A stretch of DNA of 64,000 bases, from positions 1 to 64,000 of the forward strand of contig JAFTID010000035.1 in the NCBI GenBank assembly GCA_017457085.1, given 5' to 3'. Position numbers and translations under genes: made by a program. Origin of the DNA: Phascolarctobacterium sp. Its GTDB lineage: Bacteria > Bacillota > Negativicutes > Acidaminococcales > Acidaminococcaceae. Every line of letters starts with the position of its first letter. Within the stretch, counting starts at the first letter, position 1. The notes beneath the pieces are model-generated. The model did not search any database, was not told the DNA's origin, and saw nothing but the letters and a program-made list of their open reading frames with translations. Below are positions 3 through 18,697 of this stretch, one piece after another.

Positions 3-110
3 AGTCAAGTAATGTTCCATCTCGGATACGAGTTTGATGAAAATGATGTACATGATGTGAAGTTATTGTGTGAGACATTTCATATCGAAGTTCCAAATGA
101 GTATAGATAA
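3..110 (+). CDS. C-terminal end of an unidentified protein (5' truncated by the window)
   Basis: A plus-strand frame is open from the window edge to TAA at 108-110 and encodes 35 residues ending in VPNEYR. The stretch is acidic and contains a YEFDEN segment; it matches no family I recognise. A good rho-independent terminator lies 38 bases after the stop, which is the main support for a real gene end. The frame is short enough that chance cannot be excluded. Confidence 0.4.
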   Translation, partial: SQVMFHLGYEFDENDVHDVKLLCETFHIEVPNEYR

Positions 111-148
111 CGACAAATTCCAATTTGGTGAATTGAATACTGACCGAT

Positions 149-182
149 AGGGGCGAGGTTGAAATACACCTTGCCCCTTTTC
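149..182 (+). terminator. Rho-independent terminator
   Basis: The 11-bp stem AGGGGCGAGGT / ACCTTGCCCCT (one G-U pair) has an 8-nt loop and is followed by TTTT. It closes the plus-strand gene ending at 110. Confidence 0.7.
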
Positions 183-277
183 ATTTGCCTATGGGTATTC
201 ATAGAAAATGAATAAAAAGGTCAGTTATACGCACCAATACTTATCTCGGACAGAGAGTTAATTTAAGGAGGGATATT

Positions 278-391
278 ATGTTCAGAGAAATGGAAAGCAT
301 TATGGAAGTATCGGTCATAACATTCACAGTACTATTATGTATTACAGTCAAAGCTATAATGGTTTTCACACTCTGGTGTTGTTCGTTTTAA
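278..391 (+). CDS. Small hydrophobic peptide (37 aa), possible membrane peptide
   Basis: The ATG at 278 follows a strong Shine-Dalgarno sequence (AAGGAGGG, about 5 nt spacing). The 37-residue product has a short charged N-terminus and one hydrophobic stretch, roughly residues 11-35, ending in WCCSF. No family is recognised. Size and layout resemble small phage membrane peptides or type I toxin-like peptides, but nothing here proves a toxin, and no antisense RNA promoter was identified. A CCTGTCC/GGACAGG hairpin (395-412) follows the stop. Confidence 0.45.
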   Translation: MFREMESIMEVSVITFTVLLCITVKAIMVFTLWCCSF

Positions 392-467
392 CGCCTGTCC
401 CAATGGACAGGTGCGGGGATCGCACAAAAAGGGTGGGAGGTTTGTGTGTTCCTGTGTGATTGATGAT

Positions 468-501
468 AAAAAAAAAAGAAAGGTTGCCCTTTCTTTTTTT
501 T
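468..501. terminator. Bidirectional terminator
   Basis: A-rich arm ending in GAAAGG, loop TTGC, then CCTTTC and a long T run. The A run and T run make it work on both strands: it ends the small plus-strand gene and the minus-strand operon whose last gene stops at 506. Confidence 0.75.
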
Positions 502-505
502 AGGA

Positions 506-862
506 TTAGATGGTAATAAGTTTACCATTGTATAACATGAATTTTACAGGATGCTCGAACATCTTCAAGTATTTCTCTGTAAGTTCAGGATTAAGGCTTT
601 GCAACTCATCAGCAGAGCAATCACAAATAAATGCTTTGCCAGCTATCACGTCTATGATTTCACCGTCCTTATCAAGGATAGCTCGATTCAAAGGCAAACC
701 ATTAAGCTTACCTTCTTCGTTGCAAACAAGACCAACGTATTGATCCGTAAATGGATAAATTATTTCGAGAAAACCTTCCACTTCTTCTTGCATTGAAGCT
801 AAATCATTACCTATTTCTTTGAGGTAAGCAGCTTTGTCAGGTTCCAACATAATTACTTGCAT
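506..862 (-). CDS. DUF3846-family protein
   Basis: This 118-aa protein matches the DUF3846 pattern seen in phages and ICEs: an N-terminal QVIMLEPDKAAYLKEIG segment, then VCNEEGKLNGLPLNRA and DVIAGKAFI. The molecular role of the family is unknown. The start is set at the ATG at 862, which has AAAGGAG 7-8 nt upstream; a longer frame would begin at a TTG inside that ribosome site. It is the last gene of the minus-strand element operon and ends at a bidirectional terminator. A weak 6-bp hairpin (892-907) lies in its leader. Confidence 0.75.
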   Translation of the reverse strand: MQVIMLEPDKAAYLKEIGNDLASMQEEVEGFLEIIYPFTDQYVGLVCNEEGKLNGLPLNRAILDKDGEIIDVIAGKAFICDCSADELQSLNPELTEKYLKMFEHPVKFMLYNGKLITI

Positions 863-971
863 TAATGTTTCTCCTTTCAAGATTTTCTACGGGGATATTC
901 TTATCCCTATAGGAACTAATAGATGATATATATTTTATTTTTGGGGATATACGGTTGAGGGAGCAGTGCTT

Positions 972-1391
972 CTAAAATATTTCCTCTGAGGGAGTATCAC
1001 CTTCCTCATCATTTGTCACGTAACTGTCAAAGGTATCTGTGTTGCGTAACCATACGCTCATTGAATAGCTGTCATTATAGATTACGATTATCTTTGTCCA
1101 TTTTTCCCCATCAATGAAGAAATTGTAAGCAACTTCTGGTAGTATTGCCTCCAATCCATCAGTTAGCCCAAGGTCTTCAATTTCTTGGTCTGTTTCCGTT
1201 CCTTCAAAAATTGCAATGTAACCATAATCATAGTCGTCAGTATGGAAAGTTTCAAGCGTAGTCTCGCCATCTTCATCGCTCCAGCTCTTAATCCTAACTA
1301 ATTCTTCTTTGAGCATAGTGATAATGCGATCAGGAACACTATTATTAGCTTCTAAAGCTAAGATATCTTTATAACATTTTACTTTAATCAT
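972..1391 (-). CDS. Unknown acidic element protein (139 aa)
   Basis: The start is the ATG at 1391, just after TTAGGAGGAAAT, whose GGAGG overlaps the stop of the upstream Rad52-like gene, so the two are probably translationally coupled. The product is strongly acidic (DEDGETTLETF, HTDDYDYGY, TNDEEGDTPSEE) with no membrane segment and no recognised domain. Strong acidity is common in phage-encoded inhibitors that mimic DNA, but that is only a compositional remark. It lies between the annealing protein and DUF3846. Confidence 0.6.
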   Translation of the reverse strand: MIKVKCYKDILALEANNSVPDRIITMLKEELVRIKSWSDEDGETTLETFHTDDYDYGYIAIFEGTETDQEIEDLGLTDGLEAILPEVAYNFFIDGEKWTKIIVIYNDSYSMSVWLRNTDTFDSYVTNDEEGDTPSEEIF

Positions 1392-1399
1392 ATTTCCTC

Positions 1400-2116
1400 C
1401 TAAGCAGCGTTCATTTTCTTTTGGCACTCATAACAGATGGGGACTCCATATTTGCTTACTGCATAATCAACAACTTTTTGTGATTTAATGGTCGCATGGC
1501 ATTGGTTACATACGTTACCACCTGTAAATGGTACTTCAAAAGATTCTGAAGCTTTAGGAGTAGTGACCATAGTGTCAGTATTTTTAGAGGATTTGTTAAC
1601 GGTGAATCGTTCAGCACCATTCTTATCTACTACCAGGAACGTAGTAAACTTGTTTTGCTCTTTGTCATAGCTCATATCTGCAACGTAAAACTTAGCCTTG
1701 CACTTAGGCTTTCCATTCTTGTCGAGGTAGAACTCTTCTTCATTAAGCTTAATTAGAATATCAGGAGCAGTATAAAGTTCTCTGCCTATACCCCAATTAA
1801 AGCAAGCACGTTTGAATGCATCACTGGCTTCACCCTTAGTAGCTTCTGAATTGCTAGGTACACCTACGTCTTGTTTGGAAATCCATTCCTTCTTATCTTC
1901 ATCCCACACGCTAACTGTGCAGAACAGTCTGCCATCAATAGTGCTATGGTCTCTAGTCCAGTTCATTGAGCCAAATACTTCGTCGAGAATACGCATATCA
2001 ACACGAGCATTCTTGTAGACGAGCAATACTGCAAAAGTTCCTTGATTGGTTTGGTAGATTTGAGCCACTCTAAGTTCTACATCTGAAGAAGTTAATAGTG
2101 GTATTTCTTTTTTCAT
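1400..2116 (-). CDS. Rad52/Rad22-type single-strand annealing protein with C-terminal zinc ribbon
   Basis: This 238-aa protein carries the phage-type Rad52 signature: about residues 82-118 read through SKQDVGVPSNSEATKGEASD, AFKRACFNWGIGRELY and TAPDI. The C-terminus has two CxxC pairs (C203/C206 and C228/C231), a probable zinc ribbon seen in related phage proteins. Family members bind and anneal ssDNA during phage recombination or replication. The start ATG at 2116 has GAGGT 8 nt upstream. A 12-bp hairpin with a T run lies in its leader (2142-2168). The nuclease gene upstream fits a paired exonuclease and annealing module. The C-terminal residues are NAA. Confidence 0.85.
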   Translation of the reverse strand: MKKEIPLLTSSDVELRVAQIYQTNQGTFAVLLVYKNARVDMRILDEVFGSMNWTRDHSTIDGRLFCTVSVWDEDKKEWISKQDVGVPSNSEATKGEASDAFKRACFNWGIGRELYTAPDILIKLNEEEFYLDKNGKPKCKAKFYVADMSYDKEQNKFTTFLVVDKNGAERFTVNKSSKNTDTMVTTPKASESFEVPFTGGNVCNQCHATIKSQKVVDYAVSKYGVPICYECQKKMNAA

Positions 2117-2134
2117 AACTTTACCTCACATATA

Positions 2135-2168
2135 AAAAATTAAAGGACTATCAATTTGATAGTCCTTT
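2135..2168 (-). terminator. Terminator or attenuator hairpin before the Rad52-like gene
   Basis: On the minus strand, AAAGGACTATCA / TGATAGTCCTTT forms a perfect 12-bp stem with a 3-nt loop followed by AATTTTTTAT. It sits between the 66-aa gene and the annealing gene, so it either ends the upstream transcript or attenuates the downstream gene. Its 3' foot is exactly 25 nt from the next start codon, the same as the hairpin at 4277-4310. Confidence 0.75.
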
Positions 2169-2188
2169 TGCTTATCAGTTAGTAGTTG

Positions 2189-2389
2189 TTAGGCTGCGTT
2201 GAACACTTCATCATCGTCCATTTCAGCCACCAAAATGATAACCTTTGGCAAATCCTTCTTGAAAATGATTTTCACTCCAGTAACGCAAGAATCAATTTCC
2301 GAAGTGTATTTCCCTTTATAGCAAGCCATAACCTGGTCTTCATCTTGCAGAACAGATAATGCCTGGATAAGTTGTTTTTTAGTCATCAT
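2189..2389 (-). CDS. Small unknown element protein (66 aa)
   Basis: The start is the ATG at 2389 (or the adjacent ATG at 2386), 9 nt after AGGGAG, a site overlapping the end of the bS6-like gene. The layout KKQLIQAL, then DEDQVMA, then a VKIIF...VIILVAE beta segment resembles common small phage proteins of the 'x-eLi..L...p.dx-v' type, but no named family is certain. It ends DDDEVFNAA, sharing the terminal NAA of two neighbours, and is followed by the hairpin at 2142-2168. Confidence 0.55.
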   Translation of the reverse strand: MMTKKQLIQALSVLQDEDQVMACYKGKYTSEIDSCVTGVKIIFKKDLPKVIILVAEMDDDEVFNAA

Positions 2390-2403
2390 CAAGTTACACT
2401 CCC

Positions 2404-2685
2404 TTAGCATTCTTTACGCACAATCATATGGCGAAGAATAGTTTCATTGATTTTCAGATAACGATCAAGTTCTTTAGTAGCATTAGAAGTACTGGAATAG
2501 GTGATTAATGCATAGATGCCTCTAGTAGAACCCAAGATTTCATAAGCAAGAGCTTTTTCGCCCCAGATATCAACCTTATCAACCTTGCCTTCAGCATTGA
2601 TGATGGATTTGGATTTTTCGATGATTGCGTTAAGCTCTTCATCACTAATAATTTTGGTGACAATCATGATTTCATAGTTGTTCAT
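2404..2685 (-). CDS. Ribosomal protein bS6 homologue encoded on a mobile element
   Basis: The 93-aa product reads like a complete bS6: an N-terminal NNYEIMIVTKIISDEELN, central KVDIWGEKALAYEI, then RGIYALITYSS and C-terminal NETILRHMIVRKEC. These match the bS6 hallmarks (YE.M.I, V...D.WG...LAY.I, G.Y.L...., LN...LRH.IVRK). The start is the ATG at 2685, 5-6 nt after AAAGGAG; that ribosome site overlaps the stop of the nuclease gene. Host rpsF normally sits with ssb and rpsR, and neither is adjacent. Here the gene lies between a nuclease and an annealing protein, so it is an element-borne paralogue, not the housekeeping copy. Whether it enters ribosomes is unknown. Confidence 0.85.
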   Translation of the reverse strand: MNNYEIMIVTKIISDEELNAIIEKSKSIINAEGKVDKVDIWGEKALAYEILGSTRGIYALITYSSTSNATKELDRYLKINETILRHMIVRKEC

Positions 2686-2698
2686 AATAGCTTCTCCT

Positions 2699-3607
2699 TT
2701 AAGCAGCATTGATTAAATTATTTTGAATAACGTCTTGTTGTTCCATATAAGCCTTACAAGCTTCAAATACATTGCAGTAGTCCTGACATTTTCGTCCATT
2801 CCAGGATTCTCTTTTACTGCAGAAAGCAGGAATTGCACCAGTAGCCATAGCTTCTTCTAGTCTGCGTTTCTTGATTGCAAAGTAACGTTTAAGCCAATGG
2901 TCACTAATACGATTGACCTTAATAAGATATATAGGCTTTTCTACATTCCTTTCAGCTGCGATTCGAAGTGAGTAGTCACGTACATACATCTGAATATGCA
3001 TATCATCTACCTTGAAGTTATGCTCTTCTAAAAGCATTCGGTAAGCATTGACTTGAATAGCCCATTCTAAGATATGTCTAACCCCACCCGTTTTTATTAC
3101 CTTACGAGTCTTTTCCTGACCTTTCTTAGCTCCGGTTTTATAGAATTCTCCAGTAGGTTCATCTACCTTATAGTAGCCAAGAGCCATGGCAGCCTTAAAA
3201 GAAGAAGTAACCTTGTAATCAAGAAGTATCTTTTTACCATTACCCAAAAGGTCACCATAGGCATCAATCTGCCCAGTGTAAATATCGTTAGAAAGCCTTA
3301 CTTCGGTTAAGGTGAATGATGAAGAATGTTTTTCACAGATAGAATGGACAGCAGTACCGTGCATGGCAAAGATTTGGTCTTGAGGATCTACGGCATAGTC
3401 GGTAGTTTTCTTGAGGTAAACCTCTCTAGTCCCAGATATAAGTTCTGTGACGGAATAGATTTCACCCAAACCTCTATCCTTTACTGAATTAGCGACAGCT
3501 TCAAGAGTAGGCTTACCCATACAACGAATTGCGTTAGGACAAGCACTTAGGCATTCAGATATTCCTATGCGTTCTTTGCTAGGGCAAATGAATTGAGTAG
3601 CTCCCAT
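2699..3607 (-). CDS. PD-(D/E)XK nuclease, RecB/Cas4-like, with cysteine cluster
   Basis: This 302-aa protein has the RecB/Cas4-like order: H83 (AMHG), D115 in GQIDAYGD, D130-Y-K132 in ILLDYKV, and Q185xxxY189 in IQVNAYR. Four C-terminal cysteines (C263, C274, C278, C284) are placed like the Fe-S ligands of Cas4/AddB-type nucleases, and the N-terminus holds C8, C19, C23 and C29. It probably acts as a DNA exonuclease supplying single strands to the annealing protein downstream. The start ATG at 3607 follows GGAGG at about 10 nt, a site inside the end of the preceding gene. An Fe-S cluster is inferred, not shown. No cas1 or cas2 is present. Confidence 0.75.
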   Translation of the reverse strand: MGATQFICPSKERIGISECLSACPNAIRCMGKPTLEAVANSVKDRGLGEIYSVTELISGTREVYLKKTTDYAVDPQDQIFAMHGTAVHSICEKHSSSFTLTEVRLSNDIYTGQIDAYGDLLGNGKKILLDYKVTSSFKAAMALGYYKVDEPTGEFYKTGAKKGQEKTRKVIKTGGVRHILEWAIQVNAYRMLLEEHNFKVDDMHIQMYVRDYSLRIAAERNVEKPIYLIKVNRISDHWLKRYFAIKKRRLEEAMATGAIPAFCSKRESWNGRKCQDYCNVFEACKAYMEQQDVIQNNLINAA

Positions 3608-3609
3608 TT

Positions 3610-4251
3610 TTAAGCGACCTCCTTCTTAGCCATAAATTCAGCCATTTCATTGTGGTACTCCTTAAATCTATGAATGTAGAAATAATATTCTTTGTCAGAA
3701 GAACCATAGATTTGGTCAATGCTACGCTCGATATCGTCTAAGGTATCGAAATAACCAAAGTAAGCTTTAGGGAAGCTAGTTCTAAGATAAGTGAATAAAG
3801 CCTTATATGTCTTGAAGTATTCAGATTCGGAAACACCATTAATTCGCCATTCAACTTTATAGCGGTCAGGATAAAATACTCCAGTATCGTCTTTAACAAT
3901 GAAGATATCGCCACCATCTTCTGAGCAAAAGCTGAGATGGATTTCGTTATGGTACTTTTCTTTCAAAAGATTAATGATAGGAAGCATATTTTCGCTCCAA
4001 GCGGTGGTTGTTTCACAACTGAAATAATGCACACCTCTCTTGCTGGTGATGAACTCGTCACAATGGCTAAAATGATCGGTATTGTTCACGCCCAACGGAA
4101 GCAGATAGCCATGGGATTTGAGAAGATCCCTAACGAGATTTTTACCCTTTACTGCATCGTCATAGCAGCTAAGGACTTTCTTATGCAGTTCTCTAAGCAG
4201 CTTAATGTTACGAGAACTAAAAGTTATGGAATTGACAGTATAATTACACAT
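3610..4251 (-). CDS. Api92-like (ferredoxin-like fold, DUF1281-type) protein
   Basis: This 213-aa protein opens with CNYTVNSITF and carries a middle ETTTAWSENMLPIINLL segment followed by a beta-rich acidic stretch (LSFCSEDGGDIFIV). This layout resembles Api92-like proteins found on phages and plasmids, whose function is not established. It is the first gene of the minus-strand operon; its ATG follows AAGGAGG at 8 nt and a terminator-like hairpin at 4277-4310. The family call rests on pattern only, so it is moderate. Confidence 0.5.
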   Translation of the reverse strand: MCNYTVNSITFSSRNIKLLRELHKKVLSCYDDAVKGKNLVRDLLKSHGYLLPLGVNNTDHFSHCDEFITSKRGVHYFSCETTTAWSENMLPIINLLKEKYHNEIHLSFCSEDGGDIFIVKDDTGVFYPDRYKVEWRINGVSESEYFKTYKALFTYLRTSFPKAYFGYFDTLDDIERSIDQIYGSSDKEYYFYIHRFKEYHNEMAEFMAKKEVA

Positions 4252-4267
4252 AGTAACTACCTCCTTG

Positions 4268-4310
4268 AAAAATAATAAAGGTAGCCATACTTAATAGCAT
4301 GGCTACCTTT
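4268..4310 (-). terminator. Leader terminator/attenuator hairpin of the element operon
   Basis: On the minus strand AAAGGTAGCCAT / ATGGCTACCTTT is a perfect 12-bp stem with a 10-nt loop, followed by ATTATTTTT. It lies in the 5' leader of the first operon gene, 25 nt before its ATG, so attenuation is more likely than simple termination. No clear operon promoter could be picked in the AT-rich 4311-4450 stretch, which has several TATAAT-like hexamers. Confidence 0.65.
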
Positions 4311-4542
4311 TGATAGTTATATAGGAATTTATAAATACCCGTTGTTGATGGCATTTCTCTATACTTATATATAATATATGTTCATGACATAGATAAATAC
4401 GATTTGAAATACTGATTGCTAAAGAAAGCCAAGCAATGAAAGGTATTTAAAACTATAAGTAGAATATATTAGTATACTTTAAGACTACTTGTATTATTAT
4501 GTTGTGATTTTGATGGGAACGGGTTAACGGGAGGAATTTGAA

Positions 4543-6312
4543 ATGAAAACAAATGACAGGCAAATCACTGATTTAATGAAATCTGTGCATGAAGGTAAAG
4601 CGCAATTACCTGAATTCCAAAGAGGTTGGGTTTGGGATGATAATCGTATTAAAGCATTAATTGCAAGCATTACAAACAACTATCCTGTTGGTGCTGCAAT
4701 GTTTTTAGAATATGGGAGTAAGAATCTTCGCTTTAAATACAGAGTGATTGAGGGCGCTCCTATATCGACTGTAACTCCTGAAGAATTGATTCTCGATGGA
4801 CAACAAAGATTAACTTCTATATATTCTGCTCTTTATAGTGATAAGCCTGTTGCAACTAGAACTGATAAGGGAAAAGATATTAAGAGGTTTTATTACATTG
4901 ATATTGAGAAGGCTTTGGATCCTAGAACTGATAGAATAGATGCAATAATTTCAATTCCTGAAGATAAAGTTGTAACATCAAATTTCGGAAGAACTGTTGA
5001 ACTTGACCTTTCTGATCGTGAGAAAGAATTTGAGAAAAAGATGTTTCCACTAAACATTATTTTAGATAATGTCAAAGCGCAGTATTGGCAAAATGATTAT
5101 TATGCATATCACAAATACGATAAAGATATTATTGAGGAATATATTAAGTTCAATAATAGCATTGTAATGAAGACTATGCAGTATATGATGCCAGTTATTT
5201 TATTAGAAAAAGATATAGCCAAAGAAGCTGTATGCCAAGTTTTCGAAAATGTTAATACAGGTGGTGTATCACTCACTGTTTTCGAACTCATAACAGCAAT
5301 CTTTGCTATGGAAGATTTTGATTTACGAAAAGATTGGGAAGATCGTAAAGAGAAATATTTTACAGGGGATATTCTAAGTGTTGTTACTGCAACTGATTTT
5401 TTAGCCGCTTGTACATTGTTGTCCTCTTATAACAAGGGTGGAACTGTAAGCTGTAAGAAGAAAGACATATTAAATCTTACTCTCGCAGACTTTAGAGCTA
5501 ATGAGAAAGCTTTGAGTGAAGGCTTTGTGAAAGCCGAAAAGCTGCTGCAGGAGGAAAGGATATTTGTGAGCCATGATTTACCTTATTCATCACAGCTTAT
5601 TCCTTTAGCAGTAATATGTACACTTCTTGATAAAAGAATTGATATCACAACAAATAAAGATATGGTTAAGCAGTGGTATTGGTGTGGGGTATTTGGTGAA
5701 TTGTATGGTAGTGCGAGTGAAACTAGATATGTCAGTGATGTTATTGGTGTGATGGATTGGATTGATGATCTGGAGGCGATACCTAAAACGATTCAAGATG
5801 CATATTTTAACCCTACAAGACTGCTTTCTTTGAAAACTAGACAAAGTGCTGCATACAAAGGTGTTATGGCATTGATTTTGAAAAATCATTGTAAGGATTT
5901 TATAAGTGGTAGTGAAATGGATTTTGTCCTGTATAAAGCTGAAAATATAGATATACATCATGTTTTCCCAAAAGCATATTGTGAAAAAATGAAGTATTCA
6001 GAAGACAAATGGAATTCTGTTGTAAATAAAACACCTATCACATATAGAACAAATAGAGAAATTGGTGGTGTAGCACCTAGTAAGTATATTGAAAAAATAG
6101 AAACCAAAGGTAAAGTAAAAAGTGATGTGCTTAATGAATATTTAGAAACTCACTGGCTTGATGTTGGATTCTGTAGAACTGATAATTTTGACGGACATAT
6201 TATATTTAGAGCTAAGAAGCTACTTGATGCTATCGAAAAGGCAATGGGAAAAACTATTTCTGGTAGGGATAGCGAAGAAGTCATCAAGAATTTTGGCGAT
6301 AAATTGATATGA
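4543..6312 (+). CDS. DUF262-DUF1524 fusion nuclease (GmrSD/SspE-like defence protein)
   Basis: This 589-aa protein has an N-terminal DUF262 (ParB/sulfiredoxin-like NTPase fold) domain with FQRGWVWD (25-32) and the hallmark LDGQQRLTS (DGQQR 85-89). The C-terminus holds a DUF1524 HNH motif, IDIHHVFPKAY with H472-H473, then paired Asn around NKTPITYRTNRE. The same two domains form GmrS and GmrD of the type IV enzyme GmrSD, BrxU, and the phosphorothioate sensor SspE, which cut DNA carrying or lacking particular modifications. Which modification this one senses cannot be told. GGAGG lies 7 nt before the ATG. It is the last gene before the att site, a common cargo position, with no modification gene beside it. 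Confidence 0.8.
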   Translation: MKTNDRQITDLMKSVHEGKAQLPEFQRGWVWDDNRIKALIASITNNYPVGAAMFLEYGSKNLRFKYRVIEGAPISTVTPEELILDGQQRLTSIYSALYSDKPVATRTDKGKDIKRFYYIDIEKALDPRTDRIDAIISIPEDKVVTSNFGRTVELDLSDREKEFEKKMFPLNIILDNVKAQYWQNDYYAYHKYDKDIIEEYIKFNNSIVMKTMQYMMPVILLEKDIAKEAVCQVFENVNTGGVSLTVFELITAIFAMEDFDLRKDWEDRKEKYFTGDILSVVTATDFLAACTLLSSYNKGGTVSCKKKDILNLTLADFRANEKALSEGFVKAEKLLQEERIFVSHDLPYSSQLIPLAVICTLLDKRIDITTNKDMVKQWYWCGVFGELYGSASETRYVSDVIGVMDWIDDLEAIPKTIQDAYFNPTRLLSLKTRQSAAYKGVMALILKNHCKDFISGSEMDFVLYKAENIDIHHVFPKAYCEKMKYSEDKWNSVVNKTPITYRTNREIGGVAPSKYIEKIETKGKVKSDVLNEYLETHWLDVGFCRTDNFDGHIIFRAKKLLDAIEKAMGKTISGRDSEEVIKNFGDKLI

Positions 6313-6404
6313 AAAATTAAATAACATAATGATATTTAGATAAGTTGGTTGGTCTGTGAAAGTATTAGCTGAGGAACTCATTAAAGTTGCTTGCGTACTG
6401 TACA

Positions 6405-6490
6405 TTTTCGTGAAAATCGCGTGCAACTTTTCGTGCAACTTTCTGTGAAAATAGTGTCCCAAAAGGTGGTTTTAGGACTTTTTGTTGCAC
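6405..6490 (+). repeat. Short repeats beside the att site (possible integrase arm sites)
   Basis: GTGCAAC occurs at 6421-6427 and 6433-6439, 12 bp apart, and inverted (GTTGCAC) at 6484-6490. GTGAAAAT occurs at 6410-6417 and 6445-6452. Clusters of short repeats within 200 bp of a core site are typical of tyrosine integrase arm-type sites. That role is inferred from position only. Confidence 0.4.
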
Positions 6491-6574
6491 TTTTCAAATA
6501 GGAGCAAAAAACCTGAAACTCCAGTCCCAGAGCTGATTTAGAGGTGTTTTCATATAGGGGTAAAAATATACTCC

Positions 6575-6625
6575 AACTGCCTCCTAAGCAGTAGGTCGCC
6601 AGTTCGACTCTGGCCGGGATCACCA
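6575..6625 (+). other. Att site: 3' fragment of tRNA-Arg(CCU)
   Basis: This contains the anticodon arm ACTGC/GCAGT with loop CTCCTAA (anticodon CCT, 6583-6585), the T arm GCCAG-TTCGACT-CTGGC, the acceptor 3' strand CGGGATC, discriminator A, and encoded CCA at 6623-6625. The matching 5' acceptor strand GATCCCG and a D arm are absent upstream, so it is not a full tRNA gene. A 3' tRNA fragment at an element edge is the direct repeat left by integration into a tRNA 3' end. Confidence 0.8.
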
Positions 6626-6634
6626 TTAAAAATT

Positions 6635-6666
6635 AAAGCCTGTGCTTTTTAGCACAGGCTTTTTTG
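6635..6666. terminator. Terminator between the att site and gatB
   Basis: AAAGCCTGTGCT / AGCACAGGCTTT gives a 12-bp stem, a 4-nt loop and a T run on the plus strand. It would be the original tRNA-Arg terminator, and can also serve gatCAB on the minus strand, where TAATTTTTA follows. Confidence 0.8.
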
Positions 6667-6714
6667 TATAAATTTCAATTAAATATTTAAATGATAGCAA
6701 TAGGTTTAGCAAGC

Positions 6715-8157
6715 TTACCCCAAAGCTTCTCTCAGTAATTTTTGCACAATTTCAGGATTTGCTTTGCCTTTAGATTTTTTCATGATTTGTCCAACGAGGA
6801 AGCCAATGGCACGTTCTTTGCCAGCCTTGAAATCTGCGACGGATTGGGGATTTTCTGCAAGAGTTTCTTCAACCAGTTTTATAATTGCGCTTTCGTCGCT
6901 AACTTGCTCTAAGCCAAGTTCTTTGACGAAAGTTTTGGGTGCTTTATCTGCTTTGAGCATTTCAGCAAAGACTTTTTTAGCAAGTTTGCTAGAAAGTACG
7001 CCCTCTTTTGTCAAGTTGACAAGCTCTGCCAAGTGCGCAGGGGTAACATTAAATTCAGAAATAGTTATGCCCTCGTTGTTCAGATAAGCGGAGACGTCAC
7101 CTAAGAGCCAGTTGGCAATACCCTTGGCATCTTGGGTGGTTTTTACTGCTTCGTCGAAGTATTCTGCCATGGCTTTGGTGGCAACGATAATGGAAGCATC
7201 GTATTTGGGCAAGCCAAAGTCTTGCATCAGACGTGCTTGTCGTTGGGCAGGAAGCTCCGGCAATTCTGCACGCACCCGTTCAATCCAAGCTTCGTCTAAT
7301 TCCACGGGGAGCAGGTCAGGCTCAGCAAAGTAACGGTAATCGTGTGCTTCTTCCTTGGAACGCATGGACTTAGTTACGCCTGCTGTATCGTCCCAAGTGC
7401 GAGTTTCTTGGACAACTTCTTCGCCTTTTTCTAGCACTGCTTTCTGACGTTCCACTTCGTAGTCAATGGCGCGCACCAAAGCACGGAAGGAGTTCAGATT
7501 CTTGATTTCAGCACGGGTGCCAAATTTTGTGGCACCTTCCGGCATTATAGAAATGTTGGCATCGCAACGAAGACTACCTTCTTGCATCTTACAGTCGCAA
7601 ACGTCGATGTATTCTAAAATTGCTTTCAGATTTTCCAGATAAGCACGCGCTTCTTCCGCACTACGCATGTCAGGCTCGGAAACAATTTCAATTAGCGGTA
7701 CGCCTGCACGATTGTAGTCAACAGAAGACGAACTGGAACTGCTGATAGTTGCTCCGTTGTGCACTAGCTTACCTGCATCTTCCTCCATGTGAATGCGGGT
7801 AATCCCAATGCGTTTTTCACTGCCGTCAAGATTAATATCAATATGACCATGCTTGCAGATGGGCTTGTCGTATTGAGAGATTTGATAATTTTTGGAAAGG
7901 TCTGGGTAAAAATAGTTTTTGCGGTCAAATTTATTGAAGACTTTAATTTCACAGTTCAAAGCCAAGCCTGCACGAATAGCGAATTCAACGACCTGTTTGT
8001 TTAAAGAAGGCAAGGCACCGGGCATGCCAAGACAAACTGGGCATACGTGAGTGTTGGGTACACCACCAAATTCCGTGGAGCAGGAGCAGAAGGCTTTAGA
8101 TTTAGTTTTCAGTTCGGCGTGAACTTCCAAGCCGATTACGGTAATATATTTAGTCAT
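6715..8157 (-). CDS. gatB: Aspartyl/glutamyl-tRNA(Asn/Gln) amidotransferase subunit B
   Basis: This 480-aa protein is the full length of GatB. The family start [16 protein letters not shown] is present, followed by zinc-type cysteines (CSC and CPVCLGMPG) and the tRNA-binding C-terminal YqeY-like domain ending in [13 protein letters not shown]. GatB, the kinase and transferase core, phosphorylates Glu-tRNA(Gln) or Asp-tRNA(Asn) and uses ammonia channelled from GatA. It overlaps gatA by the ATGA tetranucleotide, so the two are coupled. It is the last gene of the gatC-gatA-gatB operon. Confidence 0.97.
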
Positions 8158-9623
8158 TTGTTGTTACCTCCCAAAGGAGCGAAGACTTTGTGGTATTCAG
8201 TAGCTTGTTCAAAGGTGTAAGCTGCACGCAAAATGGTTGCTTCGTCTAAGATTTTGCCGATTAGTTGCATACCCACAGGCATTCCGTCTGCGAAGCCACA
8301 GGGAATGGAAATACCCGGCAAGCCTGCCATATTTACAGGAATGGTAGTTACGTCAAGCATATAAATTTGTAGCGGGTCCATTTTTCCGTCAAGGGGATAA
8401 GCCACAACGGGAGAAGTGGGAGTTAAGATAACATCACATTTTTGGAAGGCTTCTTCAAAGTCGCGACGGATAAGTGTACGGATTTGCATTGCCTTGTTGT
8501 AATAAGCATCGTAGTAGCCACTGCTTAAAACGTAGGTGCCAAGCATAATGCGACGGCGTACTTCTGCACCAAAGCCTTCGGTACGGCTCAGAGTAACCAT
8601 TTCCGGAGTAGAAGTAGCTTCCATATTGCGGTAACCATAGCGTACACCGTCAAAGCGTGCCAAGTTGGCAGAAGCTTCTGCAGGAGCGATTATGTAGTAG
8701 GTAATTACTGCGTATTCAGTGTGGGGAAGGCTAATCTCCACGATTTCGGCACCCAGTTCTTGATATTTCTTTACTGCCTTTTCGATTTCGGCTTTCACTT
8801 TTTGGTCAATGCCTGCGCCAAAATATTCCTTGGGCAAGCCGATGCGCAAGCCTTTAACGTCCGGTACTAAGGCTTTGGTGAAATCAGGCACTTCTACATT
8901 TAAAGAAGTAGCATCTTGTTCATCTTTACCGCAGATGGTATTGAGAACGATGGCGGCATCGGTAACGTCTTTGGTAATGGGACCGATTTGGTCAAGGGAG
9001 GAAGCGAAGGCTACGCAACCGAAACGGGAAACACGTCCGTAGGTTGGTTTAATGCCAACGCAACCATTAAAAGCAGCAGGTTGGCGAATGGAACCGCCCG
9101 TATCAGAGCCTAAAGTCCAAATAGCTTCGCCTGCGGCAATGGCTGCAGCGCTACCTCCGGAGGAACCACCGGGAACTCTGTTCAAGTTCCAAGGGTTGCG
9201 TGTTGCTCCGAAGAAGGAGCTTTCCGTAGTGGAACCCATGGCGAATTCGTCCATATTTGTTTTGCCAAGAAAAATAGTTTCGTCAGTGCGGAGTTTCTTA
9301 ATTACGTGGGCATCGTAAATGGGAACAAAGTTGCTCAGTATTTTCGAGGAGCAGGTGGTGCGCAAGCCAAGGGTAGAAATATTATCTTTAATTGCACCAG
9401 GAATGCCTGCTAGGGTGGGAATTGCTTCGCCTGCGGCAAGCTTCTTGTCAACCTTAGCGGCTTGCACCAAGGCAACTTCCTTGTCCAAGGTAACGTAAGC
9501 GTTTACTTTATCTTCAACTTCATAAATGCGTTTATAAAGAGCATTGGTCAGTTCAACGGAACTGATTTCTTTTTTGACGAGCTTTTTGTGTAGCTCGTGA
9601 GCTGTAAGTTCATATAATTTCAC
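8154..9623 (-). CDS. gatA: Aspartyl/glutamyl-tRNA(Asn/Gln) amidotransferase subunit A
   Basis: This 489-aa amidase-signature protein releases ammonia from glutamine for GatB. The catalytic Ser-cisSer-Lys region is visible as GAIKDN and [16 protein letters not shown], followed by [11 protein letters not shown]. The chosen start is the GTG at 9623 ([11 protein letters not shown]), 8 nt after AAGGAGG; upstream in-frame codons would run back into gatC. It lies 17 nt after gatC and overlaps gatB by 4 nt. Confidence 0.96.
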
Positions 9624-9639
9624 GGCGGGAGCCTCCTTG

Positions 9640-9927
9640 TTATTCAATAACGCGCGGTACTTTGAAACCGTCTTTTTCCACGGCAGGAGCATTCTGCAAG
9701 GCAGCTTCGTGACTTACGCCCGGTTTAACAATGTCTTCGCGGAAGGCGTTGCTGATAGGTAAAACGTAGGGAGTAGGCTCAATGCCCGTTGTATCAATTT
9801 TTTTCATAATCTCAGCGTAATTTAAGATTTGGTTGAATTGCTCAGTAAAGATTTCCAGCTCAGCTTGGGGTACTGCCAAGCGGGAAAGCTGAGCGATATA
9901 CTTAACATCTTTTTCAGTTACTTTCAT
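9640..9927 (-). CDS. gatC: Aspartyl/glutamyl-tRNA(Asn/Gln) amidotransferase subunit C
   Basis: This 95-aa protein has the GatC pattern: [12 protein letters not shown] near the N-terminus, [18 protein letters not shown] in the middle and REDIVKPG toward the C-terminus. It wraps between GatA and GatB and stabilises the complex. First gene of the operon; the ATG at 9927 has AGGAAGG about 7 nt upstream, and a near-consensus promoter lies about 110 bp upstream. Confidence 0.95.
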
Positions 9928-10038
9928 GTTATCACCTTCCTGTATTTATAAGCTTTCCGAAACGAATTTTTCTGCGAACAAGAAACCTTTGTCGCAGGGA
10001 TAAACGTTCGGGATTTTACACATAGATTTTTCGTGGTT

Positions 10039-10068
10039 ATTATATTCTTCTAAATACTGGAAAGTCAA
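10039..10068 (-). promoter_or_regulatory. Sigma-A type promoter of gatCAB
   Basis: On the minus strand: TTGACT (10063-10068), 18-nt spacer, TATAAT (10039-10044). It points at gatC. Confidence 0.75.
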
Positions 10069-10165
10069 TGTACACGGAAAAATTCACAATTTTTTGTATT
10101 AACTGAAAATTAAAATTCACAATTTAGTAAAAGGTAATGTTCGTAATGGTATGTATGTTAGCAAA

Positions 10166-10199
10166 TAAAAAAGCTCCCAGCTAAAAAGCTGGGAGCCTC
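10166..10199 (-). terminator. Terminator after trxA
   Basis: On the minus strand, AGGCTCCCAGCT / AGCTGGGAGCTT with a 5-nt loop and a T run. It ends the mscS-trxA transcript. Confidence 0.85.
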
Positions 10200-10212
10200 A
10201 AGTTTCTACATA

Positions 10213-10518
10213 TTATCTTACCAAGTCTTCTAAGGCACCTTTAGATTGCAAACCAACTGCGCAGTTAACTGCTTTGCCGTTTTTGAAAACAATCAAGGAA
10301 GGAATGCTGGTAATTTTAAATTGCATTGCCAGTTCTTGGTTATCGTCTACGTTGATTTTAACAACCTTTATATCAGGATTTGCTTCTGCGAATTTGTCTA
10401 AGACGGGTGCTTGCATACGGCAGGGACCGCACCAAGGTGCCCAGAAATCTGCCAGAACAGTTTCTTTTGCTTCTAAAACTTCTGCGCTGAAGTTGCTTTT
10501 GTTAATTTCTAATGCCAT
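10213..10518 (-). CDS. trxA: Thioredoxin
   Basis: This 101-aa thioredoxin has the active site WCGPC at 29-33, the conserved cis-Pro loop ITSIPSL, and the KVVKINVDDN strand. It reduces protein disulfides in the cytoplasm with thioredoxin reductase, which is not in this window. The start is the ATG at 10518; an ATG two codons earlier sits right against the AAAGGAAG site and is too close. It follows the MscS-family gene by 14 nt and is probably co-transcribed with it. Confidence 0.95.
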   Translation of the reverse strand: MALEINKSNFSAEVLEAKETVLADFWAPWCGPCRMQAPVLDKFAEANPDIKVVKINVDDNQELAMQFKITSIPSLIVFKNGKAVNCAVGLQSKGALEDLVR

Positions 10519-10532
10519 AGTCATCTTCCTTT

Positions 10533-11633
10533 CTAAACTTTTTGTTCAGGAGTGAATAAATCTTTTGTGTTGATAAGCTCGTTTTTCAACGGAGTTTCAA
10601 AATAAATGCTCGTGCTGGGGAATGCGCAGCTTACGCCAACTTGTTCCATAATTTTCATTAAATCAAGGTTGATGCGTTGCACGATGTCTAGGTATCTTAA
10701 ACTTTCACCAGTTTTAGCGTGGCAGGTTACGCGAATATCCAAACTGCTTGCGCCATATTGGAAGAAGTGTACACGCACGTCATCGGTGTGCAGGTCTTCT
10801 TGTGCTTCCAAGTAAGCTTGAATTTTTTGGATTACTTCCAGCATTTGGTCGTGGGTGGTGCCATAGGTCAAACCCAAGAGAAAGTCGATGCGACGTTTTT
10901 CGCGACGGCTATAGTTAATGATGGGAGTGTTGCTCAGTAGGGAGTTAGGGATATAAACCAGCTCGTGGGGGAAGGTACGCAGGCAGGTGCTACGGAAGGT
11001 AACTTTTTCTACGATGCCTTCATAGCCGTTTGCCAATACCCATTCGCCAACTTGGAAGGGTTTATCCAAAATGATTACGAGGCTACCAAAAACATTAGCA
11101 AGGGCATCTTTTGCCGCAAAAGCTACTGCCAAGGAACCAATGCCCAAGGATGCAACAAAACCGCTGATATCGTAGTTCCATTCTTTGGCAACAGTTACGA
11201 AGCACAGAATAACGATTAACAAGCGCAAAATTGTAGAGAAAATATTGGAAACAGCTTCTTCAGAACGAATGCCTGCCCGTTCCAAAACCTTCAGTAAAAC
11301 ACCATGGGTAGTATCGCTCATATTGTAGCAGCCCCAGAAGAAGCACAGCACGATGGCGCTACGCAAAACTCTGTCTAAAAAGGCTGCCCAGTAATCGGTG
11401 GAGATAGGTGCCAAGTTGATGGCACTGTAAATACCGCCGATGAAGAGCATTACGTTAATAGGATGCTCAAAGGCATCTAAAATATCTTCGTCGTAAGAAA
11501 AGGGACTAAGCTCAGTCGCCTTTCTTAAAATGTTCAGAATAACTTTCTTATAAAGATAGCGAACAATTGTGAACCCAAGGAGAGCAAGAATGGAGCTTTG
11601 CCAAGGCTTCAAAAGAGTTAAAAATTCTTCCAT
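10533..11633 (-). CDS. MscS-family small-conductance mechanosensitive channel
   Basis: This 366-aa membrane protein has about four hydrophobic segments before the MscS core: the pore helix region GFVASLGIGSLAVAFAAKDA, then the beta domain with GEWVLANGYEGIVEKVTFRST and IPNSLLSN. Such channels release solutes on hypo-osmotic shock. The ATG at 11633 follows GGAGG by 6 nt. It is longer at the N-terminus than the 286-aa E. coli MscS, as in many Firmicutes homologues. It heads a two-gene operon with trxA. Confidence 0.9.
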   Translation of the reverse strand: MEEFLTLLKPWQSSILALLGFTIVRYLYKKVILNILRKATELSPFSYDEDILDAFEHPINVMLFIGGIYSAINLAPISTDYWAAFLDRVLRSAIVLCFFWGCYNMSDTTHGVLLKVLERAGIRSEEAVSNIFSTILRLLIVILCFVTVAKEWNYDISGFVASLGIGSLAVAFAAKDALANVFGSLVIILDKPFQVGEWVLANGYEGIVEKVTFRSTCLRTFPHELVYIPNSLLSNTPIINYSRREKRRIDFLLGLTYGTTHDQMLEVIQKIQAYLEAQEDLHTDDVRVHFFQYGASSLDIRVTCHAKTGESLRYLDIVQRINLDLMKIMEQVGVSCAFPSTSIYFETPLKNELINTKDLFTPEQKV

Positions 11634-11664
11634 AAAATCCTCCAATTTCCTAATTTGTGTTTAT

Positions 11665-11693
11665 ATTCTATCATCTTAGTATGTCTAAAACAA
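11665..11693 (-). promoter_or_regulatory. Probable promoter of mscS-trxA
   Basis: Minus strand TTGTTT (11688-11693), 17-nt spacer, TAGAAT (11665-11670), about 32 bp before the start codon. Confidence 0.55.
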
Positions 11694-11780
11694 TGAGTTT
11701 ACATATTTTTCAATATAATTAAATGAGGAGATTATTTTATATGTTATAATAATTCTAATACAAACCCTAGGAGGTAGCTT

Positions 11781-12290
11781 ATGCATCTTTTTTTAGATTG
11801 GCTTGTGGCAGGTATCATTGTGGTATTGGGACCACTGCTTACTGTTTTCGATTTGCCTGGTAACAGTTTAATGATGTTGACCAGTTTGGGGTTTGCTTTT
11901 TATGATGAAGCTATGTATTTTAACTCACGCTTATTGTCAGCTATGATACTGATTTACGTATTGGGGGAAAGCTGGGAATTTTGCGTGTCTTTGTTTGGAA
12001 TCAAGAGGAATAAGGTTTCTTGGTTCGCTGTGTTTGTCATTGGTGTAGGTGGTTTCATCGGTACCATGATTGGCACAGGCATTTTTCCGATTTTAGGTTC
12101 CTTCATTGGCGGTTTGATGGGCGCCTTCGTCGCAGCCTTTCTGTATGAATACTTGCATAGCGGTATGCGACAGGATGCTTGGAATTTGGCGTGGGAGACT
12201 GCCAAGATGAGGTTTTTGGCGTTGATTGGGAAGATGTGCGCAGGCATCGCCTTGGCTATTCTCTTGGTGAAACAAATTTTTATGGTTTGA
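11781..12290 (+). CDS. DUF456-family membrane protein
   Basis: This 169-aa protein has four to five hydrophobic segments and the DUF456 traits: a DLPGNSLMML motif near residue 25 and glycine-rich repeats GVGGFIGTMIGTGIFPILGS, FIGGLMGAFVAAFLYEYL. The family has no assigned function. AGGAGGT lies 5 nt before the ATG. It is followed after 11 nt by the dehydrogenase gene, so they are likely co-transcribed. Confidence 0.75.
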   Translation: MHLFLDWLVAGIIVVLGPLLTVFDLPGNSLMMLTSLGFAFYDEAMYFNSRLLSAMILIYVLGESWEFCVSLFGIKRNKVSWFAVFVIGVGGFIGTMIGTGIFPILGSFIGGLMGAFVAAFLYEYLHSGMRQDAWNLAWETAKMRFLALIGKMCAGIALAILLVKQIFMV

Positions 12291-12301
12291 GGTGATAATT
12301 T

Positions 12302-13273
12302 ATGACTGACTTGAAAAAATACACCGTCGTAGCTAGTGGTAAAATGCGTGACGTTGCTTTTGAAAAACTGAATGAAACCGTAAATCTTTTGGGCTGGCAA
12401 AAGGGTGGCAGGGTTCCTGCTGAACAGTTCGATGAATGGCTGGCAAAGGCAGATGCCCTTTTCTCCACTGGTAATATTAAAATTAACGAGGAACTTTTGG
12501 CGAAGGCTCCCAATCTGAAAGTAATTGCGCAAGCTGCCGTTGGTTATGACAATATTGATATTGCTGCCTGCACTGCTCGTAATATTCCTGTTGGCAACAC
12601 TCCGGGCGTATTGGTAGATGCTGTTGCTGATTTGGCTTATGCTTTGATTTTAGACAGCGCTCGTAAAATTGTACACGCTAATGCACACGTTAAGAGTGGC
12701 AAATGGGGAGAAAATAAACCCTTTGGCTTGGCAACCGATTTAGCGCACAAAACTTTGGGCGTTGTTGGTATGGGCGATATTGGCAGCGCCATTGCGGAGC
12801 GTGCCAAAGCTAGCAAAATGAAGATTATTTATCACAACCGTAATCGTCGTGCAGATGATGAAAAGCTGGGTGCAACCTACGTTACCTTTGACGAACTTTT
12901 GGCGCAAGCAGATTTCATAGTTATCGCCGTAACCTTGAACCCTTCTACCAAGGGTATGTTTAATGAAGAAACTTTTGCAAAAATGAAGGACGGCGCACGT
13001 TTGGTAAACATTTCCCGTGGCGCTGTTATCGATACTGAGGCAATGTACAATGCGCTGGTTAGTGGTAAGCTTGCTTATGCTGCCATGGACGTTACTGATC
13101 CGGAACCTTTGCCGGGAGACCACAAGCTGCTTAGCTTGCCCAACGTAACCGTTACTCCCCACATTGCTTCTGCAACTACGGAAACTAGAGATGCCATGGC
13201 ACTCTTAACCGTTGATAATATTTTGGCTGCTTTGGAGGGTAAACCCATGCCTGCCCAAGTAAAGGCTAAATAA
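12302..13273 (+). CDS. D-isomer specific 2-hydroxyacid dehydrogenase
   Basis: This 323-aa NAD(P)-dependent enzyme has the Rossmann motif VGMGDIGSAIAERA with HNRNRR after it. A basic residue pair after the second strand suggests NADPH use, as in glyoxylate/hydroxypyruvate reductases. The catalytic Arg lies in NISRGAVIDT, Glu in DVTDPEPLPGDH, and His in TPHIASAT. The exact substrate (glyoxylate, hydroxypyruvate or another 2-ketoacid) cannot be read from sequence. GAGGTGA precedes the ATG. Confidence 0.9.
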   Translation: MTDLKKYTVVASGKMRDVAFEKLNETVNLLGWQKGGRVPAEQFDEWLAKADALFSTGNIKINEELLAKAPNLKVIAQAAVGYDNIDIAACTARNIPVGNTPGVLVDAVADLAYALILDSARKIVHANAHVKSGKWGENKPFGLATDLAHKTLGVVGMGDIGSAIAERAKASKMKIIYHNRNRRADDEKLGATYVTFDELLAQADFIVIAVTLNPSTKGMFNEETFAKMKDGARLVNISRGAVIDTEAMYNALVSGKLAYAAMDVTDPEPLPGDHKLLSLPNVTVTPHIASATTETRDAMALLTVDNILAALEGKPMPAQVKAK

Positions 13274-13286
13274 TTTAGAGGCTAGA

Positions 13287-14570
13287 ATGAAATATAAAAT
13301 TTGTTTACACGGGCTGGCTTTGAAAAACAAAGGTCAGCTTGTGACTGTGGTGCAAAAACTTTTGCTACCAGCTAACATAAAAACCAAAATAAAAGAAAAG
13401 TATCTTACCAATAATGATTTGCTCAAGTACAAACGCACAAGATTCAGCCCTGTCAACGATGTGGGCTACAAGGTAACCTGCATCAGCGGCGTAATGATGA
13501 TTTGCGACAGCTTGCAACCTTTAAATGAAGTAATCATTCAATATGAGGAAGAAGCTGTGGAAGAAGTGCGCAAGCTGCTGCAAAAATTACTGGGAAGTAA
13601 AATTAAATTCGTGCTTGATGAGCCGGATTTAGTTTTACGTGCGAAGCAGTTACGTGGACGTTCCAATATGCTAGATATGGCGCATTATGACGAGGCTACC
13701 ATTGCTACTGCTCTGTATTGTCATTTGCCTTGGCATATTTACGCTACCAGTAAGGCGTGGGGAGATTTACTTACCAGTACCAATGAACGTAATTTAGTAC
13801 GTCAATTGCGTGTGAAACTAAGACGTTTGCGTTCCAGCTTAACCTTTTTCAAGGAACTTCTGCCTATGACTACCTTTGAGCAGTATAAAATGCTCATTAA
13901 GGGTTGGGCGAATAGCTTGGGTGATGCCCGTGAGTATGATGTAGCGCTCTTAACCTGTATGAAGATTAGGCACGGACAACGTGAGGAAGAAAATGTAGAA
14001 GAAGTTTCCCGTTTAGAAAAGATTTTGCAGGATTTGCGGGCCAAAGCTTCTAAAAAAGTTCTGAACGTAAGTAAGCTGAACACTTTAACCTTGCAATTGG
14101 CAGAGATGCTTTTGACCTTGCACACTGCCAAGCTTCCAGAAAATTTAGCAGACGTACGTTTAAAAGCGTTTATTCGCTTGCGACTGGGGTGCTGGTGTGA
14201 TAAGCTTATGACATTGAAGGATAAGTATCCAGATTTTTCTGATATGGAACAATTACACAAGGTGCGCATCAAGGTGAAACGCTTCCGTTATTCCTTGCAG
14301 GGCGTGCCTGAAATTGCTTCTTCCGTCAGTTTGCGAAGATGCATGAAATCTTTGCAGGATATGCTTGGCTTTTTGCACGATGACTACGTTAACGATATGC
14401 TCATCAGCGAAATCTTGAAGCAGTATCCTGAGGATGCGGCACTGCAATATGAGGGTGCCATGTTCTGTGGTTGGGAACGTGCTAAGGCGGAAGCTGCCTT
14501 GGCTAGCTTGCCGGAACTGTGGGATTCCTTTACGGCGCAGTTAGGTGAGTGGCAGGAAGAACATTTATAA
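13287..14570 (+). CDS. CHAD-domain protein
   Basis: This 427-aa protein has a C-terminal CHAD domain from about residue 150, with the conserved basic helices VRQLRVKLRRLRSSL and LHKVRIKVKRFRYSLQ and the SLQDMLGFLHD signature. CHAD domains bind inorganic polyphosphate and often follow a CYTH triphosphatase domain. The N-terminal 140 residues here show no clear ExExK motif, so a working triphosphatase is not supported. Its stop TAA overlaps the next ATG by one base (TAATG). Confidence 0.85.
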   Translation: MKYKICLHGLALKNKGQLVTVVQKLLLPANIKTKIKEKYLTNNDLLKYKRTRFSPVNDVGYKVTCISGVMMICDSLQPLNEVIIQYEEEAVEEVRKLLQKLLGSKIKFVLDEPDLVLRAKQLRGRSNMLDMAHYDEATIATALYCHLPWHIYATSKAWGDLLTSTNERNLVRQLRVKLRRLRSSLTFFKELLPMTTFEQYKMLIKGWANSLGDAREYDVALLTCMKIRHGQREEENVEEVSRLEKILQDLRAKASKKVLNVSKLNTLTLQLAEMLLTLHTAKLPENLADVRLKAFIRLRLGCWCDKLMTLKDKYPDFSDMEQLHKVRIKVKRFRYSLQGVPEIASSVSLRRCMKSLQDMLGFLHDDYVNDMLISEILKQYPEDAALQYEGAMFCGWERAKAEAALASLPELWDSFTAQLGEWQEEHL

Positions 14571-14980
14571 TGGAGGCTACTTTGAATAAGTGGGAAGAAT
14601 TACTGCAAGATTACGGTTTTGTTCCGTGGCAGAGTGGAGGCATGAAAGGCTGGCATCGCCATACTGATTTTGTCAAAGACTGCCTTGCGGGTGAGATTGG
14701 TCGCTATTCTGCAGATGATTTTATAATTTTTAAGCACAACGGTAGAGTTTCGGAAAACTGGCTCAAAGAAAATTGGCAGCCTAAAGAAGACGTGATGAAG
14801 CATCGCTTCCTTCTTTTAGACAGCGAGTTTTCTGACGAGGTAGTGAAGTCCTACTGGTGGGGCATTAAAGGTTGGCTTGAAATTTTACATTATAGGGGGG
14901 GAGACAAGGTTAAGCGTTTTGAGGATTTGATTTTTTTGGTTGAGCAACGTGCATTACTCAACGAAGGCAAAAATATATGA
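14570..14980 (+). CDS. Unknown cytoplasmic protein (136 aa)
   Basis: No family recognised. The protein is soluble-looking and rich in tryptophan, for example GGMKGWHRH, ENWLKENWQ and SYWWGIKGW. The ATG overlaps the stop of the CHAD gene (TAATG). An alternative start is the TTG at 14582, which has GGAGG only 5 nt upstream and so may be the better initiator. It ends 14 nt before the CstA-type gene and probably belongs to the same transcript. Confidence 0.7.
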   Translation: MEATLNKWEELLQDYGFVPWQSGGMKGWHRHTDFVKDCLAGEIGRYSADDFIIFKHNGRVSENWLKENWQPKEDVMKHRFLLLDSEFSDEVVKSYWWGIKGWLEILHYRGGDKVKRFEDLIFLVEQRALLNEGKNI

Positions 14981-14994
14981 AGGAAGGGAATTAA

Positions 14995-16587: not shown

Positions 16588-16630
16588 ATCCTCAGCACAA
16601 TTACTTATCTCGTAATGTAAAATGCACATA

Positions 16631-16666
16631 AAAACTCCCCATTCACAAGCGTGAGTGGGGAGTTTT
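16631..16666. terminator. Bidirectional terminator between cstA and cysE
   Basis: A 16-bp stem (AAAACTCCCCATTCAC / GTGAGTGGGGAGTTTT, one G-U) with loop AAGC. A and T runs on either side serve both convergent genes. Confidence 0.9.
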
Positions 16667-16687
16667 ACTTGCTCTTATAAAATTTTA

Positions 16688-17383: not shown

Positions 17384-17465
17384 GAGCAGGCTCCTTTCTT
17401 TAGAAATTGGTAATTCTATTGTAACACGATTGATATTGTGTGGTAAATAAAAGTGTAGCTTTTTA

Positions 17466-17494
17466 TTGAATTTGTGGCGACGTTAGAGTAAAAT
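17466..17494 (+). promoter_or_regulatory. Promoter of the 17528 gene pair
   Basis: TTGAAT (17466-17471), 17-nt spacer, TAAAAT (17489-17494), about 33 bp before a strong ribosome site. Confidence 0.6.
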
Positions 17495-17527
17495 AAACCT
17501 AATGAAAGTTTTAAGGAGGAATGAAAA

Positions 17528-17974: not shown

Positions 17975-17975
17975 G

Positions 17976-18260: not shown

Positions 18261-18457
18261 AAGTTCATAGAAAATTTAAGAGGTTGGGACAAAACCTCTG
18301 GATAAGAACTGAAAAATGCAGACGAAAATTAGTATTGCACTAATAATTCGTCTGCCTTTTCTATTTTTGTAGTAAAATAATATAAGAACACCCCAACCAA
18401 ATAAACAATCAAGATTTGACATCCACGAAAAATCTTGAGAGAAAGAAGTGTCCTTAT

Positions 18458-18643: not shown

Positions 18644-18650
18644 AAATACG

Positions 18651-18697
18651 AAGAAGTGGAATTGAGAATGTATGAAAACATCTCAATTCCACTTCTT
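18651..18697 (+). terminator. Hairpin/terminator at the IS right end
   Basis: A perfect 17-bp stem AAGAAGTGGAATTGAGA / TCTCAATTCCACTTCTT with a 13-nt loop and TTTT. It would end transposase transcription. Confidence 0.7.

Follow-up and report, generated by a model that had tools for sequence, protein, structure and literature searches.

A ribosomal protein bS6 gene carried behind the exonuclease of apparently mobilizable integrative elements in Phascolarctobacterium

Single ribosomal proteins encoded by viruses are known, chiefly bS21 and bL12. Mizuno et al. (2019, PMC6375957) already list bS6 itself among the virus-encoded ribosomal proteins that show enrichment in phages from animal-associated bacteria; the phage versions of bS21 and bL12 enter ribosomes, and bS6 is not among the proteins listed there as readily exchangeable (PMC6375957). 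The pocket holding the anti-Shine-Dalgarno sequence in Bacteroidia is made up of bS6, bS18 and bS21 (PMC9976891). Two further systems are close to the locus described here, namely the S6:S18-regulated rpsF leader (PMC4647458) and the ssb-bet-exo cluster of the SXT/R391 ICE (PMC3118119).

We analyzed a bS6 gene that lies in an integrated element of Phascolarctobacterium, together with its relatives. Like the virus-encoded ribosomal proteins, these genes are cases of one ribosomal protein encoded by a mobile genome, but their carriers encode an integrase and a relaxase, up to four bS6 elements are found per genome, and the gene occupies a fixed slot behind an exonuclease. With the SXT/R391 cluster they share the setting in an integrative element and the combination of a phage-type exonuclease with an annealing protein and one further nucleic-acid-related gene, whereas this further gene is bS6 instead of SSB and the exonuclease and annealing proteins belong to other families. 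Judged by the searched papers, the multi-copy mobilizable bS6 elements, the fixed post-exonuclease slot and the lost leader are new. They represent another 30S-platform protein captured by integrative elements, with its leader lost, in two module types and in four copies beside the host gene.

The bS6 gene and its cluster

The window, a stretch of 64,000 nucleotides, starts at base 1 of its contig (C26), placing the element at the contig edge with its other end beyond the contig. On the minus strand, positions 2404..2685 encode a protein of 93 residues, with an ATG at 2685 and the Shine-Dalgarno sequence AAAGGAG. The protein matches PF01250 (Ribosomal_S6) over profile positions 1–90 of 90 with an E-value of 8.7e-25 (87.2 bits, cut-off 27) and passes the NCBIfam S6 equivalog TIGR00166 with 77.6 bits (cut-off 42.9), so that the full bS6 pattern read from the letters by the first-pass annotation is borne out by both profiles. 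The AlphaFold2 model (mean pLDDT 96.3) shows the strand and helix order of bS6 (ferredoxin-like b-a-b-b-a-b), and its best Foldseek match was bS6 of the Cutibacterium acnes ribosome (8cwo_F; TM 0.95, rmsd 0.9 Å). These data confirm a genuine full-length bS6, about 45% identical to the host bS6 protein. It shares with ribosomal bS6 the full-length profile match, the fold and the S18-contact residues, and differs in lying outside rpsF-ssb-rpsR, without the rpsF leader, and in being an additional copy borne by a mobile element.

The gene belongs to a minus-strand cluster headed by an Api92/DUF1281-like protein (3610..4251), for which the match was weak and below cut-off (PF18406, E 0.011) and which is 83–98% identical in related elements. 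Directly upstream of bS6 follows a PD-(D/E)XK-type exonuclease of 302 residues (2699..3607; phrog_2139 exonuclease, E 7.4e-21) belonging to family A2, which is conserved across Negativicutes. On the other side of bS6 are a short gene of the MTKKQLIQAL family (2189..2392), also found in L045/L084, L061 and the bS6-less L073, and a Rad52/Erf-like single-strand annealing protein of 238 residues with a C-terminal paired CxxC (1400..2116; phrog_1097 Erf-like, E 6e-24; PF04098 Rad52_Rad22, E 7.7e-5). The cluster continues with a conserved element gene of 139 residues and no assigned function (972..1391), present at the equivalent place in L044, L045 and L061, and with a DUF3846 protein (506..862; PF12957, E 2.8e-29). 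We also observed that the annealing proteins of the Rad52-like type (window 1400–2116 and relatives) and of the ERF type end in a similar paired CxxC zinc-finger-like tail.

The first-pass annotation had placed bS6 between a PD-(D/E)XK nuclease and a Rad52-like protein, with overlapping ribosome sites on both sides. The exonuclease/annealing module stands, both proteins having profile matches, but the annealing gene is not directly adjacent, as the gene at 2189–2392 intervenes. In the window sequence, the stop codon of the exonuclease gene shares nucleotides with the bS6 Shine-Dalgarno (TGCTTAAAGGAGAAGCTATTATG), and in turn the stop of bS6 runs into that of the next gene (GCTAAGGGAG). This arrangement holds for window-type elements, but not for a second type of element, in which a gap of ~55–70 bp with a terminator-like hairpin lies between the exonuclease and bS6.

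A partial tRNA-Arg 3' end on the plus strand (~6575..6625), extending from the CCT anticodon loop to CCA, forms the probable attachment-site border of the element. It is recognized by its sequence and recurs beside the element on contig C40 of a related genome (G024), where the side of that element (L084) is 89% identical to window positions 6405–6667 including the partial tRNA-Arg stretch; a complete tRNA was not detected anywhere in the window by ARAGORN. A GmrSD-type (DUF262) restriction-like gene on the opposite strand (4543–6312) separates the recombination cluster from the attachment site and is probably defence cargo of the window element.

Host operon, copy number and carrier elements

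The source genome (G000; 1.93 Mb, 90 contigs, 92% complete) yielded six bS6 matches over the cut-off. Two of them are the halves of one host rpsF, split between the end of C23 and the start of C28 with a 141-bp overlap and followed by ssb and rpsR, leaving five bS6 genes, namely the host rpsF-ssb-rpsR copy and four element copies (C4, C26 with the window, C27 and C82), each of which sits behind a homologous exonuclease. bS18 and SSB gave one match each over the cut-off in this genome, both in the host operon, and neither was found near its mobile bS6 copies. The first-pass annotation had allowed that the window gene might simply be the housekeeping copy; the separate host operon in G000 rules this out.

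A related genome (G025) contains one host bS6, with its housekeeping operon, and one mobile copy. Three mobile copies were found in G024, one in G023 and a further one on an IMG/VR contig, and the same gene order recurs in independent MAGs and on the IMG/VR contig. From G023 and G024 the host operon is entirely missing, rpsR and ssb included, which reads as an assembly gap. Among 300 Negativicutes genomes, more than one bS6 per genome was present only in Phascolarctobacterium-titled MAGs. In G000, a contig junction (L012 end/L013 end, C28/C23) falls exactly within the host rpsF, and two sister MAGs lack the operon; an assembly-graph repeat or strain variation could be the cause.

Two carriers are complete between perfect direct repeats. 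The C27 element (665–17572) is bounded by 61-bp repeats of a tRNA-Ser 3' part at 665–725 and 17512–17572, and the C82 element (97–19767) by 45-bp repeats of a tRNA-Arg 3' end including CCA at 97–141 and 19723–19767. Both encode tyrosine integrases and MobA/VirD2-type relaxases (PF03432). A PHROGs scan of ten of the larger C27-element proteins gave integrase and primase matches and no virion or structural proteins. The C4 element adjoins a tmRNA gene, with no attachment repeat in the stretch read. Based on the integrases, the relaxases, the tRNA direct repeats and the lack of virion genes in the C27 scan, the carriers resemble integrative mobilizable elements at tRNA/tmRNA genes rather than phages, and from these relatives we infer the same for the window element, which is cut by the contig end. 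In this respect the phage setting suggested by the first-pass annotation would be corrected. The complete carriers are small (17–20 kb), and a non-exhaustive search of the ORF lists noticed no T4SS; in their size and in the absence of noticed conjugation genes they differ from the SXT/R391 ICE. On contig C9 of G024 (L081/L082), second-type modules occur as two halves separated by ~23 kb, one holding the exonuclease and the other bS6 and ERF; the bS6-ERF half neighbors a transposase-like gene and carB, indicating a broken or rearranged element.

Origin of the mobile bS6 and the rpsF leader

A tree of only 93 columns with some long branches placed all nine distinct mobile bS6 proteins in a single clade (95/81) inside the chromosomal bS6 of Acidaminococcaceae (96/93). 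The mobile copies thus apparently go back to one capture from an Acidaminococcaceae-type chromosome. Two deeply separated types of exonuclease occur, each with bS6 carriers of Phascolarctobacterium and with nearest relatives outside the genus that lack bS6; one capture followed by movement between the module types fits best, and several losses also fit. In each of the nine copies that have an exonuclease, bS6 comes right after it, and the annealing protein is either Rad52-like or ERF. Where related elements have no bS6, the gene after the exonuclease is the annealing gene itself, or else other small genes or, in L066, a toxin-antitoxin-like pair come next. As these relatives keep the order of exonuclease and annealing gene, directly or after small genes, we conclude that bS6 was added to an existing module. 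The toxin-antitoxin-like pair (L066, 786–1380), recognized by eye, takes up the post-exonuclease position of its bS6-less element, which suggests a cargo site.

An alternative origin, raised in the first-pass annotation, was the transfer of an rpsF-ssb block in which the annealing protein took the place of ssb. This scenario is not supported and was rejected, since bS6-less modules exist and the mobile copies come without the rpsF leader and, in G000, without ssb or rpsR nearby.

Gene-by-gene identities vary within one element pair, indicating that the modules are mosaics; between the window and L083, DNA identity is 97% for the first cluster gene and 74% for bS6. The window-type bS6 copies are 38–68% identical among themselves and change faster than the neighboring exonuclease.

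Across Acidaminococcaceae, a conserved leader lies directly upstream of chromosomal rpsF. The home-made model R1, which was built from 14 chromosomal rpsF leaders and is mainly a sequence model, as its predicted pairs show no compensatory changes, matched at the host rpsF with E-values of 5e-13 and 2e-13 (76–79 bits) and upstream of none of the mobile bS6 copies. Rfam returned no known rpsF leader family at E-values up to 1. The host operon resembles the S6:S18-regulated system (PMC4647458) in having a conserved leader immediately upstream of rpsF, whereas the mobile copies are without it; the papers found contain no link to a mobile bS6. In the second-type elements, terminator-like hairpins (L009, 6585–6605; L011, ~5790–5815) occupy the gap between exonuclease and bS6, conserved in form and not in sequence. 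They are strong in the C4 and C82 elements (z about -5) and degraded in the C27 element. In this element type, bS6 may head its own transcription unit.

Selection, bS18 contacts and possible roles

Pairs of recent second-type mobile bS6 genes gave dN/dS values of 0.04–0.10, compared with 0.04–0.15 for chromosomal pairs and 0.19 for the window gene against L083, supporting purifying selection on the mobile copies. The residues matching L46, A47, Y48 and R85 of E. coli S6 (mature E. coli numbering) belong to the S6:S18 contact region that Babina et al. examined (PMC4647458) and are identical in 9/9 distinct mobile proteins; these bS18-contact residues, a class that the first-pass annotation had singled out for modelling, are thus kept. 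Other positions of the E. coli loop 44–49 vary, including P49, where E is found here and in the majority of the class's chromosomal copies. The basic residues R40 and K43, near-invariant in host bS6, are variable in the window-type copies, as if some rRNA contacts had been relaxed.

Sequence, phylogeny and element borders support the view that an extra bS6 was captured from an Acidaminococcaceae-type chromosome and kept as a cassette behind the recombination exonuclease of mobilizable elements. Having left the S6:S18-dependent rpsF leader behind, the captured gene would be an unregulated paralogue. Its product would pair with the single bS18 of the host and act through that pair, joining the 30S platform close to the 16S 3' tail with its anti-Shine-Dalgarno region and/or occupying the S6:S18 RNA site, and translation could thereby be adjusted during element replication or recombination. 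We give about an even chance to such an unregulated paralogue working through host bS18, on the 30S platform and/or in rpsF-leader feedback. The kept bS18-contact residues lead us to favor the ribosome/bS18 side over a role in recombination. The fast evolution of the window-type copies and their loss of R40 and K43 speak against the ribosome, and a general role in translation does not account for the constant position within a recombination cluster. Taken together, the elements suggest that mobile DNA uses or interferes with the host bS6 partner system, and they make testable whether it changes the composition of the ribosome or makes use of the rpsF-ssb feedback for its own recombination.

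That position fits a different role, in which the bS6 fold is reused as an accessory nucleic-acid-binding protein that partners the exonuclease or the annealing protein and not the ribosome. The position behind the exonuclease in nine of nine copies, with both exonuclease types and with Rad52-like or ERF partners, would be accounted for, as would a bS6 that changes faster than the exonuclease; the SSB of the comparable SXT ssb-bet-exo operon stimulates its exonuclease (PMC3118119), and the only SSB found in G000 is that of the host. However, the bS6 fold is unmodified and its bS18 contacts persist in every mobile protein, the slot elsewhere holds the L066 pair or small genes in the fashion of a cargo site, and the many homologous modules without bS6 indicate that it is not needed for recombination, so that we regard this role as rather unlikely. 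The cargo-like slot, together with the patchy presence of bS6 and the mosaic module genes, would suit a randomly captured gene without function for the element. dN/dS values well below 1, intact genes in ten loci and two module types, and good ribosome-binding sites make such neutral carriage improbable, and purifying selection already disfavors it.

We assign a similarly low probability to a feedback decoy, in which the leaderless element bS6 would raise S6:S18, which would bind the leader of the host rpsF-ssb-rpsR operon and lower host SSB and bS6/bS18, so that the annealing protein of the element would find ssDNA more accessible. The leader is present at host rpsF and absent at the mobile copies, ssb lies inside the host operon, the S18 contacts are kept next to a linked annealing protein, and S6:S18 represses rpsF in E. 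coli (PMC4647458). The low estimate follows from the finding that E. coli S6 alone gave no repression and that overproduction of bS18 was also required (PMC4647458); moreover, no mobile bS18 was found. If true, this feedback would make a ribosomal protein a regulator of DNA recombination, for which we found no describing paper. Finally, the fragmented MAG and a host rpsF itself split at a contig end could hint at an assembly or binning artefact, or at a housekeeping copy in a rearranged place. This is very hard to reconcile with the equal gene order in independent MAGs and the IMG/VR contig, with two elements complete between perfect tRNA repeats and with housekeeping operons in both G000 and G025, and we consider it highly improbable.

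The window protein also matched 25 phage-database and 56 plasmid-database records, 19 of which were opened (17 'phage' and 2 plasmid). In 17 of the 19, ssb and/or rpsR follows rpsF, marking cellular DNA or a housekeeping operon, and the other two are cut at the contig end; all were dropped. Housekeeping rpsF in such records calls for caution with database counts of mobile bS6. A phage-like IMG/VR contig (L116; 3653–4054, 5995–6459) encodes, next to an Api92-like gene, a bS6 of 154 residues whose tail is extended; this bS6 may stem from the same capture or be independent of the mobile clade (AU p 0.745). It shares the C-terminal peptide DVLLGFAHY with a nearby protein, as if both bind one partner.
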